Of a stretch of 40,359 nucleotides of DNA, positions 21,318-40,287 are shown piece after piece. This DNA comes from Planctomycetaceae bacterium. GTDB taxonomy: Bacteria > Planctomycetota > Phycisphaerae > Phycisphaerales > UBA1924. The stretch is from positions 1 through 40,359 of the forward strand of contig JAJTDF010000038.1 in assembly GCA_021294835.1 (NCBI GenBank), in the 5' to 3' direction. Under the pieces are notes generated by a model. That model saw only the letters and a program-made list of their open reading frames with translations, searched no databases and was not told where the DNA came from. The stretch's first letter is position 1. The number at the start of each line of letters is the position of its first letter. Made by a program: the position numbers and the translations under genes.

Positions 21318-22001
21318 TCACTTTGTCGCTGGGTCCGATGGCAGCTTTGCAGTTTCAGCCCGCCCGCACTCGCTGCACCTCCGCATCCGTTGCTCATCCG
21401 CCGGGCCCAGTGCATACCCGCACCGCAGGCACTGCCCTGCCACCAGCCGCCTGGCCCGCCGCCGCCGCCGCCAGGCCACCCACGCCGCGGGCACGCCGCC
21501 GGCGCCGATCACCATCGACCACGGCAGCGACACGATCTGCGCATCTTCACCCTGCCGGCTCTGCTCAATCAGCCCCAGCCCGCCTGCCTGCCAGTCGGTC
21601 AGCGATCCCCATCGCCACGCCACCACGCGGTCCGCCCGCAGGTGCACGCCCTGCATGCTCGAGCCCTCCCACCCGCCATAGGTCTCCCACTGGCTCAGTC
21701 CGGCCCGGTCGGACGAGTAACTGGTGTACCGGCTCACCCCCAGCAGCAGCACGCCCGAGTTGCTGGTGACAAAGACCCGCCCGGCGACAAACCGCCACAG
21801 GCTCTCGCGTGGCGCTGGCTCAACGAACCACCCCAGCCCGTAGCCGCCGTGGTCCAGCCAGCCCGCACTTCGCACCCACATCCCCACCCCGCCCACGCTT
21901 ACCAGCGTGCCCAGCGCGAGCACGGCTGTTCCCAGCCGCCGCGGCCACCGTCTGGCTGGCGTGCCCGCCCGCACCGTGCTTTGGGCCGATTCACCGATCA
22001 C
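21318..22001 (-). CDS. Two-helix membrane protein with C-terminal zinc ribbon (paralogue A)
   Basis: 227 residues with one helix near residues 22-42 (GTAVLALGTLVSVGGVGMWV) and a second near 170-185, separated by an extracytoplasmic domain. The tail carries CLRCGYAL and CSECG, a likely cytoplasmic zinc ribbon frequently found in planctomycete proteins. It shares its layout and many residues (MWVRS, SSGVLLLG, the SLTDWQ/SITDWQ pair) with the next gene upstream, so the two arose by tandem duplication. Translation probably starts at GTG 22001. Function unknown; tdh and both paralogues look like one transcription unit. Confidence 0.7.
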   Translation of the reverse strand: MIGESAQSTVRAGTPARRWPRRLGTAVLALGTLVSVGGVGMWVRSAGWLDHGGYGLGWFVEPAPRESLWRFVAGRVFVTSNSGVLLLGVSRYTSYSSDRAGLSQWETYGGWEGSSMQGVHLRADRVVAWRWGSLTDWQAGGLGLIEQSRQGEDAQIVSLPWSMVIGAGGVPAAWVAWRRRRRARRLVAGQCLRCGYALGPADEQRMRRCSECGRAETAKLPSDPATK

Positions 22002-22047: not shown

Positions 22048-22683
22048 TCACGTCCGCTTCGGCCCCTCCGCCACCCAGCCGCACTCGCTGCACCGCCGCA
22101 CACCCCGCACGTCCGCCGCCCCCAGCGGGTAGTCGCACGCCTCGCACTGGGTGAGCACGATGGGCTGGCCCGGCCTTCGCCGCAGCCACACTACCACCGC
22201 AGCGGGCGCGCCGAACAGGCCCATGACCAGCGCCCACGGAATGACCACCGCTTGACAACTGTGGGTAAAGACGCCCAGCCCCCACATCTGCCAGTCTGTT
22301 ATCGACGCAAAGAACACGTTATCCAGTTGCGTTCGCGCCAGAAGTGTCACGGGCAAACTCAAGACCTCCGGCCCGTTGGTGTAGTTCTCGATAAGTTCAG
22401 GCCGCCTTTGCGTATGCCAGCCTTCGGACTCACCGCGTCCGAGGATCAGCACGCCCGAACTACTCAGCACGTAGAGGCGCTCGCCCGGCATCCCAGACGC
22501 CATGCCCCATGGCGGCACCTGCGGGGCCGGGGCCGCCCCGACCCTGTACGCCACCTGATCCAGCCACACCTCACTCCGCACCCACATCCCCGCGCTCACC
22601 ACGCTCCCCAGCGTGCCGATCACCAGCACCGCCGTCCCCAGCCGCTGCCGCCACCGCCTCAGCCTCGCCCGCCGCCGGCTCAT
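22048..22683 (-). CDS. Two-helix membrane protein with C-terminal zinc ribbon (paralogue B)
   Basis: 211 residues. A basic N-terminus is followed by a helix (LGTAVLVIGTLGSVVSAGMW), an extracytoplasmic domain with SSSGVLILG, a second helix (VIPWALVMGLFGAPAAVVVW), then CEACDYPL...CSECG. It is a tandem relative of the adjacent gene. The ATG start overlaps the TGA stop of the threonine dehydrogenase gene (ATGA), and 46 bp separate it from paralogue A. No catalytic residues are apparent. A role in sensing or assembly at the membrane is possible but unproven. Confidence 0.75.
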   Translation of the reverse strand: MSRRRARLRRWRQRLGTAVLVIGTLGSVVSAGMWVRSEVWLDQVAYRVGAAPAPQVPPWGMASGMPGERLYVLSSSGVLILGRGESEGWHTQRRPELIENYTNGPEVLSLPVTLLARTQLDNVFFASITDWQMWGLGVFTHSCQAVVIPWALVMGLFGAPAAVVVWLRRRPGQPIVLTQCEACDYPLGAADVRGVRRCSECGWVAEGPKRT

Positions 22684-23771: not shown

Positions 23772-24002
23772 GGTCCGGCTCCCCGCCGGCTTGCCGGCGG
23801 TGGATGAGGAGGCGGCTGGGGGGGTCTGGATGGTGGCGGTGGCCGAAGAGGATGCAGCAGCGGTCATGCCCGCAGGGTACCCCGCTCCATGGGCCGTTTG
23901 CCCCACCCCCGGTGGTTCGGTCGCACCCCGGCTGGGGCATTCCCCCCGCCGCCCTCCCGCGGCCGCACCGGCGCACGCCCTGCGCCCGATACGCGCTGCA
24001 TC

Positions 24003-27000
24003 ATGCACCCCGGGCACCCCGTCCCTTCCCCTGACACCCTGACCCCCTTCCCGGGGTCCGACCTGTTCCTGGCCCCCGGCCCCGGTCTGACCACCCTCGC
24101 CGAGACCACCGCCTCCAACCCCATCCTGGACGCCAACCTCCGCGCCCTGGCCCGCACCTGTGCCCCGCTGGCCGTCACGCTTTCCCAGACCCAGCCGCAC
24201 CCCGGCCTGGCCTTTGTTGACACCCCCGATGGCGCCCCCGCCGGCGTGCTCACCCAGTGGGGCCTGCTCGGCCCCGGCTTCGGCGACGCCGTTGAACGCG
24301 CGCTGTGCAGCCGCAAACGCCCGCTGCATGAGGCCGCCGTGCTGGTCGAGAAGGTCACCGCCGCGTCCTGCGGCATCGCCGTGATCACCGGCTTTGCCTG
24401 CGGCTACCACGTTGCCGAGGCGGCCCGCAAGCTCGCCCACGGCGGGTTGGTGGTTGTCCTTGAGACTGACCTGCCCCTGCTCCGCGCCGTCTTTGAACGC
24501 ATCGACTGCACCGCCTGGCTCGACGGCGGCAACGTCATCGTGCTCACCGACCCTGCCGACGAGGGTGCGCTCGCTCACGCCATCAGCGGCGTGGAGCATC
24601 TGGTCGGCATGGGGGTCGCCGTCATTGACCACCCGCCCAGCAAGGCCCGCCTCGGCCCCGATGCGGCCCGGTTCGTCGACCGCTTTGTCGCCGTTGCCAA
24701 GGCCGCCCGCACGACCCTGATCACCACCCTGGCCCAAAGCAGCACCACCCTCCGCAACCTCACGCAGAACCTCGACCACTACACCGCTGCTCCCGGCATC
24801 GCCGACCTGGCCGGTGTCTGCGCCGGCCGCCCGGCCGTCGTCGTGTCCGCCGGCCCCAGCCTGCAACGCAACATGCGGCTGCTCGCCCAGCCCGGCATCG
24901 CCGAGCGTGTGGTCATCATCGCCACCCAGACCACCCTGAAGACCCTGCTGGCCGCCGGCATCCGACCCCACTTTGTCACCGCGCTGGACTTCCACGAGAT
25001 CTCCGGCCGCTTCTACCAGGGCCTGACCGAGCAGGATGTTCAGGGCATCCAACTGGTCGTCGAGCCCAAGGTCAACCCCGCCGTCACCTCCGCCTTCCCC
25101 GGCGTGATCCGCTGCTGCAACGATCCGTTTCTGGATGAACTGCTCGGGCGTGATCTGGCCCGCAACATGGGCGCCCTGCCCAGCGGGGCCACCGTCGCCC
25201 ACCTGGCGTATTACCTCGCCCGCCATCTCGGCTGCGACCCCGTCGCGTTCATCGGGCAGGATCTGGCCTTCACCGACAACCTCTACTACTCCGCCGGAGC
25301 CGCCATCCACGATGTGTGGGCTTCGGAACTTGGCCCCTTCACCACACTTGAGACCCGCGAGTGGGAACGCATCGCCCGCGCCCGCAACCTGCTCCGGACC
25401 GTCCCCTCGCACGACGGCCGCCCCGTCTACACCGACGAGCAGATGTCCACCTACCTCGTCCAGTTTCAGCGCGACTTCAAGATCGACGCCGCCCGGGGCC
25501 TCACCGTCATCGACGCGACCGAAGGCGGAGCCGTCAAGCATGGCGCCGCCCCCATGCCGCTGGCCGAGTTTCTTCGCCGCTACGTCCCCGCAGACGCACC
25601 GCCCATTCCCAGCCTTCTCCCCGCCGCCGCCGTCGGATCCGGCGATCAGGATCCTGTCGCCCGCCGTCGTGCCGTCCGTCAGCGGGTCCGCGAATTGATC
25701 TCCGATGTCCGCCGCGTCCGCACCGGCTCCGCCGAGGCCGTCAAACTGCTCCAGCAGATGCTCGAGCACCATGCCGACCAGCCCCGCGTGAACACACTCA
25801 TTGACAGGCTCGACAGCGTCCGTGCCCGCGTCACCGCGATCCGTCCTGCCTTCACGCTGGTCGAGCGGCTCAACCAGCGGGGTGTCTACAACCGCGTGCG
25901 CACCGATCGCTCCATCTACACCGACACCTCGCTGGACCCGTTTTCCGTCCAGCGCCGTCAGATCGAGCGCGACATCGCCAACATCGACAGCATCATCCAC
26001 GCGGCCGACCATCTCACCGACATCCTCGACAGCGCCGCCCGCGTCTTGGACGGCGCCCCCAAGATCACCCGCGAGGCCCTTGCTGTTGACGCCGGATTGC
26101 CCCAGGCCGGTACCGGCCCCGCCCGCCCCGCGGCGGTCATCGCCGTCGTTGCCTGCCTCACCCCCGATGCCCGCGACTGGGCCTCGCCCTTGCCTGACGG
26201 CCGCACCGCTCTGCAACTCACTCTGGCCCGGCTGCTCCGCAGCAAGCGGATCGACGGCTGCGTCGTCATCGCCGCTGATCCGCATGCCGCTCGCGCCGCC
26301 GCCGGCGCCCTCGCCGACGCCCGCGTTGGCGGCCGACCCATCACCTTCGCCTCCGCCACCCGGGGCACGCACCTTCCGTCCGATCTTCTCGCCGCCTCCG
26401 CAGCGCTCACGCCCGATCAGTGGCGGGGCGGCCCCCTCGCTCTGGCCTGCTACGACTGCCTTCTCCCCAACCTCGATGACCTGCTCGCCGCCTTGAACGC
26501 CGTCGGCCTGCCCGCCAAGGGCGACTCCGCCGCCCTTCTGGTCGGCGGCCACTGGGGCCTGATCGATCCCGCCCTGTGCGACGAGATCATCGCCCGCTAC
26601 CGCGAGGACCCTTCCGGCCACCGCCTGACCTTCAGCCAGGCCGCCCCCGGTCTGGTCGGCTGCGTGCTCGATGTCAAACTTCTGGCCGACCTGCAGCGCA
26701 CCCGCCCGTCTTCCGGCGTGCACTGCTCCGTCGGCGGCCTGCTCTCCTATGTGCCCGTCGCCCCTGCTGCCGATCCCATCGCCCGCAGCACCTGCGTTCC
26801 CGTCCCCCCGGTTGTGCGCGATGCGTTGATCGGCTGCGAACTCACGCCGGCGCGCTGCGGAGCCATCCTCACCGCCCTGCAGCAGGCTGGTGTGGATCCG
26901 CACACCGCCGACGCCAAGGCCATCGCCGGTGCCCTTACCGCCGACCGCCTGGCCGCCGCCGGCCTGCCGCCCCAGACCCTGCACCTGCACGAACAGGCTG

Positions 27001-27635
27001 ATTTGGTCGCCCTCCAGCACGCCCGCGAGCAACTCGCCGACTTCGCCCGCGCCAATCCTCGTGGCGGCGTGGTCCTCCAGGCCGGCTGGTCGCCCACCTC
27101 CGCCACCGTGGATCTCACCGCCCACGCCGCCTCGCTTGGTCTGGTCGTCTGCGTCCGTACCGCGCTGGTCACCACGCCCGCGACGGTCGATGCCCTGATC
27201 GCCGCCGGCGTCGCCGTTATCACTGTGGACGAACACGCCGCGGACGCCGCCGGCTGGTGCGCCGTCACCGGTCGCAGCGAGCACGAGTTCCACTTGGCCC
27301 AGCAGGCTCTTGAACACCTGGCCACCTGCCGTCCGGTCGCCACCGGTGAAGATCTGGCCAACCGCTGGGCCATTCGCCGGCCCATCGTCATCCCGCGCAT
27401 GGCCCGTCGCGACGCCATCCTGCACCAGATCGAGGACTGGTACGACCGATCCATCCTCCGATTCGGCGGCGCGGTCATCGACCCGCCCGATTCTCCCGAA
27501 GCACCAAACGGCCTGGGCTCTGCTCCGGCCGCCGCGGGCGAGCGTCTCACCGCCCTTCCCCTCCCCGCGCTGGCCCGCGCCCGTGAGGCCCTGCTGCTTC
27601 GCCCGGCCACTCCCAACGGCGGAGCCTCCGCGTGA
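24003..27635 (+). CDS. Maf/DUF115-type glycosyltransferase fused to SpsF-like nucleotidyltransferase
   Basis: A 1210-residue multidomain protein. Residues ~1-580 are of the Maf (motility accessory factor, DUF115/MptE-like) type: GRPAVVVSAGPSLQRN near 278, then IATQTTLKTLLAAGIRPHFV and TALDFHE. Maf proteins attach nonulosonic acids to flagellin Ser/Thr. About 712-915 resembles SpsF/NeuA-like nucleotidyltransferases: TALQLTLARLLRSKRIDGCV, IAADPHA and LACYDCLLPNLDDLL. The last ~250 residues (GGVVLQAGWSP, VCVRTALVTTPATVDALIAAG, RPIVIPRM) look like a TIM-barrel radical-SAM domain but have no CxxxCxxC cluster motif; this is the weakest assignment. The start ATG 24003 is chosen because the upstream residues are Pro/Arg-rich. 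The next gene starts within its stop codon (GTGA). Confidence 0.78.
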   Translation: MHPGHPVPSPDTLTPFPGSDLFLAPGPGLTTLAETTASNPILDANLRALARTCAPLAVTLSQTQPHPGLAFVDTPDGAPAGVLTQWGLLGPGFGDAVERALCSRKRPLHEAAVLVEKVTAASCGIAVITGFACGYHVAEAARKLAHGGLVVVLETDLPLLRAVFERIDCTAWLDGGNVIVLTDPADEGALAHAISGVEHLVGMGVAVIDHPPSKARLGPDAARFVDRFVAVAKAARTTLITTLAQSSTTLRNLTQNLDHYTAAPGIADLAGVCAGRPAVVVSAGPSLQRNMRLLAQPGIAERVVIIATQTTLKTLLAAGIRPHFVTALDFHEISGRFYQGLTEQDVQGIQLVVEPKVNPAVTSAFPGVIRCCNDPFLDELLGRDLARNMGALPSGATVAHLAYYLARHLGCDPVAFIGQDLAFTDNLYYSAGAAIHDVWASELGPFTTLETREWERIARARNLLRTVPSHDGRPVYTDEQMSTYLVQFQRDFKIDAARGLTVIDATEGGAVKHGAAPMPLAEFLRRYVPADAPPIPSLLPAAAVGSGDQDPVARRRAVRQRVRELISDVRRVRTGSAEAVKLLQQMLEHHADQPRVNTLIDRLDSVRARVTAIRPAFTLVERLNQRGVYNRVRTDRSIYTDTSLDPFSVQRRQIERDIANIDSIIHAADHLTDILDSAARVLDGAPKITREALAVDAGLPQAGTGPARPAAVIAVVACLTPDARDWASPLPDGRTALQLTLARLLRSKRIDGCVVIAADPHAARAAAGALADARVGGRPITFASATRGTHLPSDLLAASAALTPDQWRGGPLALACYDCLLPNLDDLLAALNAVGLPAKGDSAALLVGGHWGLIDPALCDEIIARYREDPSGHRLTFSQAAPGLVGCVLDVKLLADLQRTRPSSGVHCSVGGLLSYVPVAPAADPIARSTCVPVPPVVRDALIGCELTPARCGAILTALQQAGVDPHTADAKAIAGALTADRLAAAGLPPQTLHLHEQADLVALQHAREQLADFARANPRGGVVLQAGWSPTSATVDLTAHAASLGLVVCVRTALVTTPATVDALIAAGVAVITVDEHAADAAGWCAVTGRSEHEFHLAQQALEHLATCRPVATGEDLANRWAIRRPIVIPRMARRDAILHQIEDWYDRSILRFGGAVIDPPDSPEAPNGLGSAPAAAGERLTALPLPALARAREALLLRPATPNGGASA

Positions 27636-28399
27636 TCACTCCGCTCGGGTTGGTCATTCTCGCCCGCGCCGGCAGCAAGGGCGTGCCCGGCAAGAACATT
27701 GCCCCGGTCGCCGGCCGTCCGTGCATCGCGTGGAGCATCGACCACGCGCTGGCTGCGCAGCATGTCGGGGCCGTCGGCCCGGTCGCCGTCAGCACCGATG
27801 GTGCGGCCATCGCCAGCGTTGCTCGCGATCTGGGCGTTCCTGTCCTCTCCCGGTCGCCCGATCTCGCCTCCGACCGAGCCACTGTGGATGCCGCCGCCCG
27901 CGAGGCTCTCGCTCAGCTTGAGGCCGCCCACGGTCCGCTCGCCGGGTTGGTGATCCTCTATGGCAACGTGCCGGTTCGCCCCGCCGGGCTGATCGAGCGT
28001 GCGGTGGACGTGCTGCTGACCACCGGGTGCGACTCGGTGCAGAGCTACGCCCCGGTCGGCAAGCACCACCCGTGGTGGACCGCCCGCGTGCAGGCCGATG
28101 GGGCCGTCCGGCCCTGGGAGGGCGACGTGCTCAACCACGGGGTCTTCCGGCGGCAGGACCTTCCGCCCGCCCACATCCCCGACGGCGGCGTGCTGGTCGT
28201 CACCCGCGCGGCACTGCTGCTGCAATGCCCCGGCGCTGCGCCCGGTCCGCACCAGTTCTTCGGACGCGACCGTCGTGGTGTTCTGACTGCCGAGGGCGAT
28301 GTGATCGACATCGATTCTCCGATCGATCTGCTGGTTGCTGATGCCCTGCTTCGTCAGCGGGCCGGCCAGCCGACGGCGGCCGAGCCGGCAACCATCTGA
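27632..28399 (+). CDS. neuA: CMP-nonulosonate cytidylyltransferase (NeuA/LegF/PseF-like)
   Basis: Activates a nonulosonic acid with CTP to its CMP form. The signature LARAGSKGVPGKNIAPVAGRP is complete at residues 10-30, and GAVGPVAVSTD, PDLASDRATV and PDGGVLVVTRAA follow the family order. Length 255 is normal. The start is GTG 27632, overlapping the fusion gene's TGA by four bases (GTGA). It ends six bases before the NeuB-like gene. The substrate (sialic, legionaminic or pseudaminic acid) cannot be read from the sequence. Confidence 0.92.
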   Translation: MITPLGLVILARAGSKGVPGKNIAPVAGRPCIAWSIDHALAAQHVGAVGPVAVSTDGAAIASVARDLGVPVLSRSPDLASDRATVDAAAREALAQLEAAHGPLAGLVILYGNVPVRPAGLIERAVDVLLTTGCDSVQSYAPVGKHHPWWTARVQADGAVRPWEGDVLNHGVFRRQDLPPAHIPDGGVLVVTRAALLLQCPGAAPGPHQFFGRDRRGVLTAEGDVIDIDSPIDLLVADALLRQRAGQPTAAEPATI

Positions 28400-28405
28400 G
28401 CACTC

Positions 28406-29479
28406 ATGCGCATCGCACAGCGACACCTCGGGCCCGGGCACGAGCCCTACATCATCGCCGAACTGGGCGTCAACCACGACGGCTCGGTGGACAAGGCCCT
28501 CGCGCTGGTTGATGCCGCCGCTCGCGCCGGGGCCGACGCCATCAAGCTCCAACTGTTCCGCGCTGATCTGCTCATGAGCGCCGCCGCCCGTCTGGCTGCG
28601 TATCAGGCCGCCGCCGGGGAGCGTGACCCGGTGGAGATGCTCCGCCGGCTGGAACTCTCCGTGCACCAGATGGGCCCGATCGTCCAGCGGGCCCGCGCGC
28701 GCGGGCTGCACGCCATCGTCACCGTGTTCAGTCTGCCGCTGGTCGCTCAGGCCGAACTGCTGCCGTGGGACGCGTACAAGACCGCCTCGCCCGACATCGT
28801 TCACCGTCCGCTGCTGGAAGCCCTCGCCCGCACCGGCCGACCGCTGATCATCTCCACCGGGGCCGCGGAACTGGGCGAAGTCGGTCGCGCTCTGACGTGG
28901 CTGGCCGAGGCCGGCGCCGGACCGGATCGCACCGCCGTGCTGCAGTGCGTCAGCAGCTACCCGACGCCCCGCGAGGATGCCGAGCTCGGCGGGATCACCT
29001 CCCTGTGCGCTATCTGGCCTGGCGTCGTCGGCTACAGCGACCACACCGCCGAGACCGACACCGGCGCCCTGGCCGTCACCACCGGCGCCACCGTGCTTGA
29101 GAAGCATCTCACGCTTGACCGCACCGCAGCCGGACCCGATCACGCCGCCTCGCTGGACGAAGCCGGCCTGACCGAGTACGTCCAGCAGGCCCGCCAGGCC
29201 GCGGCCGGCCTTCGGGCCGGCGAGGGCATGAACAGCCAGCTGCCGGCGCGTCCCGGCAAGCGTGTGCTGGAGCGCGAGCGCGACGTGCGGGCTGTCTCAC
29301 GTCAGTCCATCACGGCCATCTGCGATCTGCCAGCCGGCACCGTGCTGCAGACGGAGCACCTGGCCTTCAAGCGTCCGGGCACGGGGCTGCTGCCGTTTGA
29401 GTTGCCCCGCGTGCTGGGCAAGCCGCTGACGCGGGCGGTTGCAGCCGACATGCCCGTCATGCCCGAGGACCTGGCGTGA
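28406..29479 (+). CDS. neuB: Nonulosonic acid synthase (NeuB/LegI/PseI family)
   Basis: Condenses an N-acyl hexosamine with phosphoenolpyruvate. The TIM-barrel motifs are intact: IIAELGVNHDGSVDKAL, DAIKLQLF, YKTASPDI, LQCVSSYPTP, VGYSDHT and EKHLTLDRTAAGPDH. The C-terminal SAF (antifreeze-like) domain is present (SRQSITAICDLPAGTVL, KRPGTGLLPFEL). At 357 residues it has full length. It begins at ATG 28406 and ends in a GTGA overlap with the NeuC-like gene. The context with NeuC and NeuA agrees with sialic or legionaminic rather than pseudaminic acid, since PseG-type hydrolases are not seen here. Confidence 0.95.
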   Translation: MRIAQRHLGPGHEPYIIAELGVNHDGSVDKALALVDAAARAGADAIKLQLFRADLLMSAAARLAAYQAAAGERDPVEMLRRLELSVHQMGPIVQRARARGLHAIVTVFSLPLVAQAELLPWDAYKTASPDIVHRPLLEALARTGRPLIISTGAAELGEVGRALTWLAEAGAGPDRTAVLQCVSSYPTPREDAELGGITSLCAIWPGVVGYSDHTAETDTGALAVTTGATVLEKHLTLDRTAAGPDHAASLDEAGLTEYVQQARQAAAGLRAGEGMNSQLPARPGKRVLERERDVRAVSRQSITAICDLPAGTVLQTEHLAFKRPGTGLLPFELPRVLGKPLTRAVAADMPVMPEDLA

Positions 29480-30726
29480 GCGGCGCACGGCGTGCCAAGG
29501 CGAAGCCGGCGAGCATCATGGTCGTCACCGGCTCGCGGGCGGAGTTCGGCCTGCTGGCGCCCGTGATGCGTGCCATCGACCGTCACCCCCAGCTCGCGCT
29601 GCAGGTCGCGGCGGCTGGCAGCCACCTGCTGGGTTCGCAGCCCACGCTCGCCGAGGTACGGGCCAGCTTTCCGGTCGCCGCCACCGTACCGATGCAACGC
29701 GCCCGGTCCACTCGTTCGCGCCGGGCCGATGCGTTGGCCGTTGCCCGGGGCATTGCCGGCTTCACCAAGGTGATGGATCGGCTGGAGCCCGACGCGGTGC
29801 TGGTGCTCGGCGACCGCATCGAGGCGTTTGCTGCTGCGACCGCTGCGGCGTTGCGGGGCGTGGTCGTTGCCCATGTGCACGGAGGGGACCGTGCCGAAGG
29901 CATCGCTGATGAATCGATGCGGCACGCGATCAGCAAACTGGCGCATGTGCACTTTGCCGCCAGCGCCCAGTCTGCCGCGAGATTGGCCCGCATGGGCGAG
30001 CACGCGTGGCGGATCCACTGTTCGGGCTCACCGGGTATTGACGATCTGGCCCGCATCCCGGCCCTCCCTTCTGCCCGCTGGGTGCAACTGGGTTGCCCTC
30101 GCGTGGTCATCCTGCTGCATCCGGCGGGCCTGAGCGAGCGGCAGGAGCAGCGTACCGCGTTGGCATGCCTGCGGATGGCGATGCACGTGCAGCCGGCGGC
30201 GGTGCGTCCCGGCGATCTGGTCGGTTCGCCGCCCCGCCCGCTGTGGCTGGCGCCCAACGCTGACGCCGGACGCGAGACCATCGTCTACGTCCAGCGTGTC
30301 GCGGCCGGGGCGGGCGTGGTCACCGCGTGCGAGCATCTGCCCCGGGCCGAGTTTGTCGGCCTGCTCAAGCGGATGGCCCGCGACTGCGCCGCCGGTCGCC
30401 CGGCGGCACTGATCGGCAACTCCTCCGCGGGGCTGATCGAGGCTTCGGCGCTGGGTGTGCTGGTGATCAACGTGGGGCCGCGGCAGGCGGGTCGACAGCG
30501 CGCGGGGCGGATGGCGGAGGTGCCCAGCATCGAAGGCCGGGGCTGGCAGGACGCGGTTCGGCGGATTGAGCGGTGGACCAGCCCCGGCTCACAGTCCGGC
30601 TCGCGACGCCCTCACCCGTACGGCGATGGGCATGCGGGCGAACGCATCGCTGAGGCGCTCGCCGGGTTGCGGCTTGATGATCCGGCTTCGGTCGCCCGGC
30701 TGATCCGCAAGCAGAACGCCGACTGA
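29476..30726 (+). CDS. neuC: UDP-GlcNAc 2-epimerase (hydrolysing), NeuC/LegG-like
   Basis: Would convert a UDP-N-acetylglucosamine-type donor to ManNAc-type sugar with loss of UDP. Family motifs: VVTGSRAEFGLLAPVMRAI, VLGDRIEAFAAA, HVHGGDRAEGIADESMRHAI, SGSPGIDD and GNSSAGLIEASALG followed by VINVGPRQAGRQRAGR. Length 416 is slightly above the family's ~380, with extra Arg/Ser-rich sequence near the C-terminus. The start is GTG 29476 inside the upstream stop codon. It is the last gene of the operon; beyond it lies a 10-bp direct repeat and the convergent prenyltransferase-fold gene. Confidence 0.93.
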   Translation: MSGARRAKAKPASIMVVTGSRAEFGLLAPVMRAIDRHPQLALQVAAAGSHLLGSQPTLAEVRASFPVAATVPMQRARSTRSRRADALAVARGIAGFTKVMDRLEPDAVLVLGDRIEAFAAATAAALRGVVVAHVHGGDRAEGIADESMRHAISKLAHVHFAASAQSAARLARMGEHAWRIHCSGSPGIDDLARIPALPSARWVQLGCPRVVILLHPAGLSERQEQRTALACLRMAMHVQPAAVRPGDLVGSPPRPLWLAPNADAGRETIVYVQRVAAGAGVVTACEHLPRAEFVGLLKRMARDCAAGRPAALIGNSSAGLIEASALGVLVINVGPRQAGRQRAGRMAEVPSIEGRGWQDAVRRIERWTSPGSQSGSRRPHPYGDGHAGERIAEALAGLRLDDPASVARLIRKQNAD

Positions 30727-35098: not shown

Positions 35099-35121
35099 GG
35101 AGGATGGTTGGGGAGTGGAAA

Positions 35122-35153
35122 TGGCAAAATGGCAAAATGACAAAATTGCAAAA
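35122..35153. repeat. 8-bp tandem repeat array 1 (four units)
   Basis: TGGCAAAA, TGGCAAAA, TGACAAAA and TTGCAAAA. It lies 24 bp upstream of the minus-strand nucleosidase start and overlaps, by one base, the ATG at 35153 of the rightward kinase-like gene. It thus sits in a divergent promoter region. Confidence 0.85.
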
Positions 35154-36220
35154 TGGAAGACACTGCAGGGTGCGCAGGGGTGATGGCTGGGCGCGGCAGT
35201 GGGGGGCGGGGCCTACTTTGGTTTGTGGCGACGACGCGGGCGATTCCGGCGATCAGTGATGTGAAGTTCCTGCGTTTGGCGGAGGGCGCGGACGCGGCGG
35301 CGTTGCTGCGGATGCTGGGCGGGCATGCGGAGGTGCTCAAGGCGGAGGGGCAGGCGGGGGATGGGGCGGACCCGTGCGGGGTGTGGGCGAGCGGGGAGGT
35401 GGTGATGAAGGTGCGGCGGGCGGGGTCGTTCTCGGAGACGATCAAGCGGGCGGTGGGAAGGAGCCGCGGGGGCCGGCAATGGGAGGGCGCGGTGTGGCTG
35501 GCGGGTCAGGGGATGGGGACGGTGGTGCCGGTGGGCTTGGCGGTGGGGCGGAGTGCGCGGGGTGTGGTGGAGGTGTTGTTTGTGCCGAGGGTGCGGGGTG
35601 ACGGGGTGCTGGAGGGGATGGCGGGGGGGGCGGGGGCGAAGTGGTCAAATGGTCAAATGGTCAAATGGTCAAATGGGGGCGGGCCTGGTGGGGGCGGAGA
35701 GGGCGACAGTGCGTGGAGCTTTGCGGAGGAGGCCTTGGTGGCGGAGGCGGTGGGGCGGCAGGTGGCGGAGATGGTGGAGCGCGGGCGGTACAACCGGGAT
35801 CACAAGCCGAGCAACCTGATGGTGCGGTGGGGTGTGGGGGACCGGGCGGGGGAGGCGGAGGTGGTGGTGCTGGACACGGTGGCGGTGCTGCCGGTGCGGC
35901 CGAAGCACGCGACGGTGCCGCACGCGGTGCGGATGCTGACGAGTCTGGTGCTGGAGCCTTTGGGGTGCGGGTGCCTGCCGAGGCGGACGGTGCGGATGCG
36001 GGCGCTGCGGGCGATGCTGGAGGAGATGTGGAAGCGGCAGGGGGTGAAGATGGGGGATGCGGGGCAGGCGGGCGGGGCGGCGGAGGTGGACGAGGGGTGG
36101 CTGCGGGGTTCGATGCGGGCGTTGTGGGTGCAGGTGGAGCGGCGGGTGCGTGAGCATGGGGACCCGACGCCAAGGGTGAACCCGCTGGCGAGTTTGGAGC
36201 GGGGGATTGGGGTGCGGTGA
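35153..36220 (+). CDS. Kinase-like protein (Kdo/WaaP-type fold) with repeat-derived insertion
   Basis: 355 residues, resembling small-molecule or lipopolysaccharide kinases of the protein-kinase superfamily. The ATP-binding part has WASGEVVMKVRRAGSFSETI (putative Lys), and the catalytic loop is YNRDHKPSNLMV (about residue 215) followed by VVLDTVAVLP (metal-binding Asp). WaaP/Kdo kinases phosphorylate lipid A-core heptose; the real acceptor is unknown. A run KWSNGQMVKWSNG in the middle is encoded by a four-unit 8-bp repeat (35642-35673) and is unlike the rest of the protein. The start is uncertain: ATG 35153 is used, with ATG 35183 as alternative. It ends 57 bp before the start of the DNA methyltransferase. 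Confidence 0.6.
   Translation: MEDTAGCAGVMAGRGSGGRGLLWFVATTRAIPAISDVKFLRLAEGADAAALLRMLGGHAEVLKAEGQAGDGADPCGVWASGEVVMKVRRAGSFSETIKRAVGRSRGGRQWEGAVWLAGQGMGTVVPVGLAVGRSARGVVEVLFVPRVRGDGVLEGMAGGAGAKWSNGQMVKWSNGGGPGGGGEGDSAWSFAEEALVAEAVGRQVAEMVERGRYNRDHKPSNLMVRWGVGDRAGEAEVVVLDTVAVLPVRPKHATVPHAVRMLTSLVLEPLGCGCLPRRTVRMRALRAMLEEMWKRQGVKMGDAGQAGGAAEVDEGWLRGSMRALWVQVERRVREHGDPTPRVNPLASLERGIGVR
35642..35673. repeat. 8-bp tandem repeat array 2, inside the kinase-like gene
   Basis: Four perfect TGGTCAAA units, followed by TGGGGGCG. The unit is not a multiple of three, so a gain or loss of one unit would shift the reading frame. It currently encodes KWSNGQMVKWSNG. Confidence 0.95.
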
Positions 36221-37260: not shown

Positions 37261-37271
37261 GCGGGCCCAAA

Positions 37272-37303
37272 TGGCCAAATGGCCAAATGGCCAAATGGCC
37301 AAA
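37272..37303. repeat. 8-bp tandem repeat array 3 (four units)
   Basis: Four perfect TGGCCAAA units, ending in TGAAG. It sits 11 bp after the methyltransferase stop and before the convergent superoxide dismutase terminator. Confidence 0.95.
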
Positions 37304-37337
37304 TGAAGCATGCGGGTGGGTGATTGGGTGGGCGCAG

Positions 37338-40028: not shown

Positions 40029-40060
40029 TGGCAAAATGTCCAATTTGCAAAATGACAAAA
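40029..40060. repeat. 8-bp tandem repeat array 4 (four degenerate units)
   Basis: TGGCAAAA, TGTCCAAT, TTGCAAAA and TGACAAAA. Upstream of the minus-strand ANL-like gene. Units are shared in part with array 1. Confidence 0.7.
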
Positions 40061-40076: not shown

Positions 40077-40180
40077 GTCTTCGCTTCCTTCGCTTCGTTG
40101 CTGACTGGCTTTGGGTTGGTGTGTTTGTGGATCAGCAACGGCAGAAGAGAAGAGGGGTCAGCGAAGGAGCGAAGAGAGCG
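40077..40180 (-). repeat. Dispersed palindromic repeat, inverted copy 3
   Basis: Reads as the reverse complement of the left-edge copies: GCTTCCTTCGCT...GCTGAC, a diverged centre, then GCAGAAGAGAAG and GGTCAGCGAAGGAGCGAAG. It leads directly into the 47-bp tandem repeats. Confidence 0.75.
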
Positions 40181-40287
40181 AAGGAAGGCAGAAGAGAAGA
40201 GAGGTCAGGGAAGGAGCGAAGGGAGCGAAGGGAGGCAGAAGAGAAGAGAGGTCAGCGGAGGGGTGAAGGGAGCGAAGGAAGGCAGAG
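40141..40287. repeat. 47-bp tandem repeat (about three copies)
   Basis: GCAGAAGAGAAGA-type words begin at 40141, 40188, 40235 and (truncated) 40282, giving a 47-bp period. Each unit ends in GTCAGCGAAGGAGCGAAG-like sequence, so it is built from one arm of the adjacent palindromic repeat. The remaining 40288-40359 is G/A-rich and gene-free as far as I can see. Confidence 0.88.

Follow-up and report, generated by a model that had tools for sequence, protein, structure and literature searches.

Maf transferases, which move sugars onto serine or threonine residues of flagellin, are commonly regarded as stand-alone enzymes. In the window analyzed here (the whole 40,359-nucleotide stretch of DNA from a Planctomycetaceae bacterium), a single gene of 1210 residues (24003–27635, + strand) encodes a Maf region and, in the same chain, a long C-terminal half with an SpsF-like segment, which raises the question of what this second half contributes. 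An earlier note had proposed that the protein links sugar activation to sugar transfer. We instead consider it probable that the gene leads a nonulosonic-acid glycosylation operon, that its Maf region transfers the sugar to flagellin and that the fused C-terminal pseudo-domains serve as a non-catalytic accessory.

The Maf region spans residues ~36–690 (24108–26072, +), and its MptE-like core (Pfam PF01973) was detected at residues 252–425 (24756–25277, +) with an E-value of 3e-34 and 118.6 bits against a curated cut-off of 34.6, in agreement with the Maf/DUF115 motifs noticed earlier. The start codon is approximate, because the frame is open from an ATG at 23889 and conservation begins at around residue 36. 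No other MptE-like gene was found in the source genome. The sole NCBIfam match of the protein was to the PseD model NF050051, at 54.7 bits far below the cut-off of 670, and the Maf N-terminal domain PF20157 was matched by 11 of the 24 aligned fused relatives (E ≤ 0.01) and not by the window protein. The remainder of the chain comprises a cytidylyltransferase-fold domain without the catalytic signature (residues ~708–945; 26124–26837, +) and a degenerate radical-SAM/SPASM-like domain that lacks both CxxxCxxC and the SPASM quartet (residues ~985–1210; 26955–27632, +).

Three genes follow on the same strand: a neuA-like CMP-nonulosonic acid synthetase whose signature residues R12, G14, S15 and K21 are canonical (PF02348; 27632–28399), a neuB-like nonulosonic acid synthase with a C-terminal SAF domain (PF03102; 28406–29479) and a neuC-like hydrolysing UDP-GlcNAc 2-epimerase (TIGR03568; 29476–30726). 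The fused gene overlaps neuA by 4 bases, neuA and neuB are 6 bases apart, and neuB overlaps neuC by 4 bases. NeuC exceeded the NCBIfam cut-off for TIGR03568 (262.2 versus 235.9 bits) and NeuB the Pfam cut-off for PF03102 (212.8 versus 22.1 bits). The PF01973, NeuA, NeuB and NeuC matches and the gene spacing confirm the earlier description of a nonulosonic-acid operon in which NeuA-, NeuB- and NeuC-like genes directly follow that of a Maf-type transferase.

NeuC converts UDP-GlcNAc to ManNAc, NeuB condenses ManNAc with phosphoenolpyruvate and NeuA then forms the CMP-sugar; the three proteins encoded here would together supply a CMP-activated sialic-acid-type sugar. NeuB, present as one copy in the source genome, reached 284 bits against the stricter equivalog TIGR03569 and fell below its cut-off of 400, so the exact sugar is not fixed by this match. 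The genome encodes two aminotransferases that scored 177 and 146 bits against the LegC model, both under the cut-off of 420; a legionaminic route is disfavored by these scores, and a Neu5Ac-like route looks more likely from them. CMP-Neu5Ac is the donor of the Maf protein of Clostridium botulinum (PMC11339370). PF02348 also matched one further protein of the genome (184 bits), encoded on contig C95, which we read as KdsB-like.

We then consider how the two halves came to share one frame. Relatives were found in 156 of the 298 genomes of the class that were searched. Fused frames of 1071–1607 codons occurred in 40 other genomes, with two shorter ones besides (one of which ends at a contig edge), and the fused gene was present in all 28 genomes searched of one family (f1). 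Other families encode the two parts separately, in a maf gene of ~650 residues and a partner gene of ~550 residues directly after it; neuA usually comes next, and neuB and neuC are often present as well. A partner-driven search of the phylum gave the same picture, with a maf gene on the same strand ending within ~270 bases upstream for 17 of 23 split partners. In a tree of 93 Maf regions (a quick search without bootstrap), the fused sequences formed one side of a single branch (SH-aLRT 99). The simplest reading of this branch is a single fusion of maf and partner, which we place in a common ancestor of three families within the order to which the window belongs. The same 43 homologues in one clade rule out a sequencing or assembly error as the source of the fused frame, an outcome that the earlier note had named as a possible refutation.

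The stand-alone partners identify the C-terminal half, as far as sequence similarity can tell, as a former neighbor gene of ~500 residues that is kin to the spiro-SPASM family. The NCBIfam model of this family, TIGR04321, was matched by all 28 aligned split partners and by 17 of 24 aligned fused relatives, although the first split member scored 114 bits, under the cut-off of 250. Most split partners also matched Pfam SPASM and, more weakly, Radical_SAM; the latter was matched by 12 of 24 fused relatives. The window protein matched neither TIGR04321 nor, on its own, Radical_SAM, but it was found at 155 bits by a profile built from the split partners only. Its C-terminus, which the earlier note had left unidentified, is a degenerate radical-SAM/SPASM domain that also has relatives encoded as separate proteins. 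A plasmid search yielded only partial radical-SAM matches.

The top PDB profile matches of the split family were BtrN (SPASM) and cytidylyltransferases, and the cytidylyltransferase-fold domain gave a profile match of 95% to NeuA. AlphaFold modeled the C-terminal half of the window protein itself poorly (pLDDT 42, with generic barrels as PDB matches), so we used the model of a relative (L032), which is of modest confidence, with a pLDDT of 51 overall that reaches at most 91 within the nucleotidyltransferase part. This model matched the cytidylyltransferase 6oew (Z 13.8), CMP-Kdo synthetase (13.2) and CMP-Neu5Ac synthetase (12.9), and the radical-SAM proteins MoaA and SpeY appeared further down its Foldseek list. 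The model therefore supports a nucleotidyltransferase fold in the SpsF-like segment, as had been proposed; lack of such a fold was the other outcome named as a refutation.

Both pseudo-domains have lost residues on which catalysis in their superfamilies depends. The comparison covered 101 partner sequences, of which 43 were fused and 58 split. CxxxCxxC was found neither in the window protein nor in any of 28 aligned split proteins or 30 matches from the phylum, whereas the SPASM cysteine quartet was intact in 51 of 58 split forms and in none of the 43 fused forms. Of the seven remaining split sequences, four are missing one cysteine of the quartet, two have few or none left, and the last is truncated where its contig ends. 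The C-terminus had been called cysteine-less; it holds five cysteines between residues 940 and 1160 (945, 952, 1050, 1086 and 1109), and what stands of that claim is the absence of the two cluster motifs. Split partners are found across the phylum, an example being L053:7914–9560 (–), with a radical-SAM-like region, the four SPASM cysteines and no SAM-cluster motif; it is possible from these features that they are SPASM-only iron-sulfur proteins.

The nucleotidyltransferase part shows a comparable loss. The signature R-x-G-S-x(5)-K, invariant in NeuA and its 21 homologues (22 proteins), is not conserved in the cytidylyltransferase-fold domain of either split or fused forms. The window protein has a partial deletion across the signature region, and the two putative acidic positions of the fold are occupied by H and T, as assigned from profile alignments and not from a structure of the window protein. 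These acidic positions are kept in 39/43 and 38/43 fused proteins, and nucleotide binding or an atypical activity is accordingly possible in most fused relatives. Other residues persist: W-R-G-G is conserved in both split and fused forms, and the invariants of the partner family are R89, W96, R97, G98 and G99 (L053 numbering).

Purifying selection acts on the fused pseudo-domains. Six pairs of related fused genes, none of which includes the window protein, gave dN/dS values of 0.10–0.21 for the nucleotidyltransferase part and 0.06–0.23 for the radical-SAM-like part, compared with 0.10–0.19 for Maf within the same genes; these values are rough, since synonymous sites are partly saturated. The short tail of the fused genes was less constrained (0.09–0.73 in the six pairs).

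Flagellin genes, which the earlier note had suggested looking for, are present in the source genome: five proteins with a flagellin domain are encoded on contig C55 (four strong matches and a weaker one that we read as FlgL-like), away from the fused-gene operon. Across the class, 154 of 156 Maf-positive genomes encoded a flagellin-domain protein (Fisher's exact test, P ~ 1e-24, with relatedness ignored), and 73 flagellin-positive genomes lacked such a Maf. The two Maf-positive genomes that lack flagellin, G102 and G155, also encode no NeuB, and their fused genes are not accompanied by neu genes. These fused genes (L121:2586–5798, +, and L122:4038–6542, –, respectively) have a decayed Maf half, down to 102 and 164 bits compared with at least 736 for complete genes of the same family, and retain the pseudo-domain half. 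The loss of the Maf half together with flagellin fits a flagellar role for Maf. The retained half is a hint of a separate role for the partner, one perhaps not confined to flagellin.

Maf-like genes without the partner domain were also observed in phage head modules on four IMG/VR contigs (L155:3881–5284, L156:2822–4717, L157:3752–5107 and L158:259–1614). They lie downstream of portal or head-morphogenesis genes, the one on L157 being upstream of a major head protein gene and the one on L155 adjoining a Polysacc_synt_2 gene. The encoded proteins group with the fused clade on long branches, and the L157 protein had no match in GenBank phages. These genes may serve to glycosylate phage virions or host flagellin.

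These observations allow the possible functions of the C-terminal half to be weighed. If the SpsF-like domain activated the sugar and passed it to Maf within one chain, as the earlier note envisaged, the real cytidylyltransferase fold and the acidic positions kept in most fused proteins would be explained; but the signature is missing from split and fused forms alike, the window protein has neither acidic residue, and the next gene encodes a canonical NeuA. We consequently hold this model to be improbable, and the proposed link between activation and transfer in one protein was not upheld. The family-specific invariants, together with the acidic positions kept in most members, could also reflect an enzyme with a non-canonical reaction, such as tailoring of the nonulosonic acid, yet the window protein keeps no known catalytic motif of either superfamily, and such an activity seems very improbable to us. 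Alternatively, the half may be a vestige, neighboring genes having been joined by loss of a stop codon and the partner drifting without function. The loss of all cluster ligands in 43/43 fused forms, among which the window protein is one of the more degraded, and the weakly constrained tail (dN/dS up to 0.73) are what such drift would leave, whereas simple decay is disfavored by the dN/dS of the pseudo-domains, which differs little from the Maf values across the six pairs; W-R-G-G and similar residues also persist in both forms, and G102 and G155 retain the partner while Maf decays. A vestige is thus unlikely.

The target of the Maf region has to be considered as well. Modification of another protein, for example one of the surface or the matrix, would be compatible with the location of the operon away from flagellar genes, with the 73 genomes of the class that encode flagellin and lack such a Maf, and with the related Maf genes in phage head modules. 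We give this possibility only a small chance, since 154 of the 156 genomes with Maf also encode flagellin and Maf is decayed in the other two. Our preferred reading remains the accessory one: the Maf region would transfer the nonulosonic acid from its CMP-activated form to flagellin, assisted without catalysis by the fused module, which would either dock flagellin or its chaperone or hold the CMP-sugar donor. More tentatively, Maf glycosylation in Planctomycetota, and perhaps also in spirochaetes, may involve a second, dedicated component that has gone unrecognized, namely the product of the partner gene, whose iron-sulfur cluster would have become dispensable on covalent fusion to Maf.

The window protein shares the MptE-like core with known Maf transferases (Campylobacter PseD/Maf, Clostridium botulinum Maf and the solved Maf-type structure 5mu5), and a genomic link to CMP-nonulosonic-acid synthesis and flagellin is common to these systems and the window operon. 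It differs in its ~520 additional C-terminal residues with two pseudo-domains and is distant in sequence from the PseD model. In contrast to spiro-SPASM proteins (TIGR04321), it is fused to Maf, lacks the SPASM cysteines and has no match to the model. The fold of SpsF-like 6oew and of the CMP-Kdo and CMP-Neu5Ac synthetases is shared by the L032 model, but the catalytic signature is lost in the fused family. Likewise, the partner family shows profile similarity to radical SAM/SPASM enzymes such as BtrN across the barrel and SPASM region, whereas no partner form has the SAM-cluster motif and no fused form the quartet; the pseudo-SAM/SPASM family TIGR04347 is a precedent. In the literature searched, which covered few subscription journals, we found no paper on a Maf–SPASM or Maf–cytidylyltransferase fusion or on spiro-SPASM, and no characterized example of a Maf fused to pseudo-domains, consistent with the earlier impression that this combined design is uncharacterized. 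A neighbor that lies beside Maf throughout the phylum, was fused to it once and has lost the quartet in 43 fused members points to a physical partnership, and the split and fused forms offer a natural before-and-after comparison of a pseudoenzyme partner in flagellin glycosylation.

Elsewhere in the window, two adjoining and similar small proteins (21318–22001 and 22048–22683, – strand) had no Pfam match and carry a C-terminal CxxCxY...RCSECG motif resembling a zinc ribbon. Runs of an 8-base unit (AAATGGCA, TGGTCAAA, CCAAATGG) were observed at 35119–35156, 35642–35676, 37267–37305 and 40034–40054; the common pattern of this unit had 9 matches, where none is expected by chance. A 47-base tandem repeat of ~3.1 copies (91% match) lies at 40140–40286.
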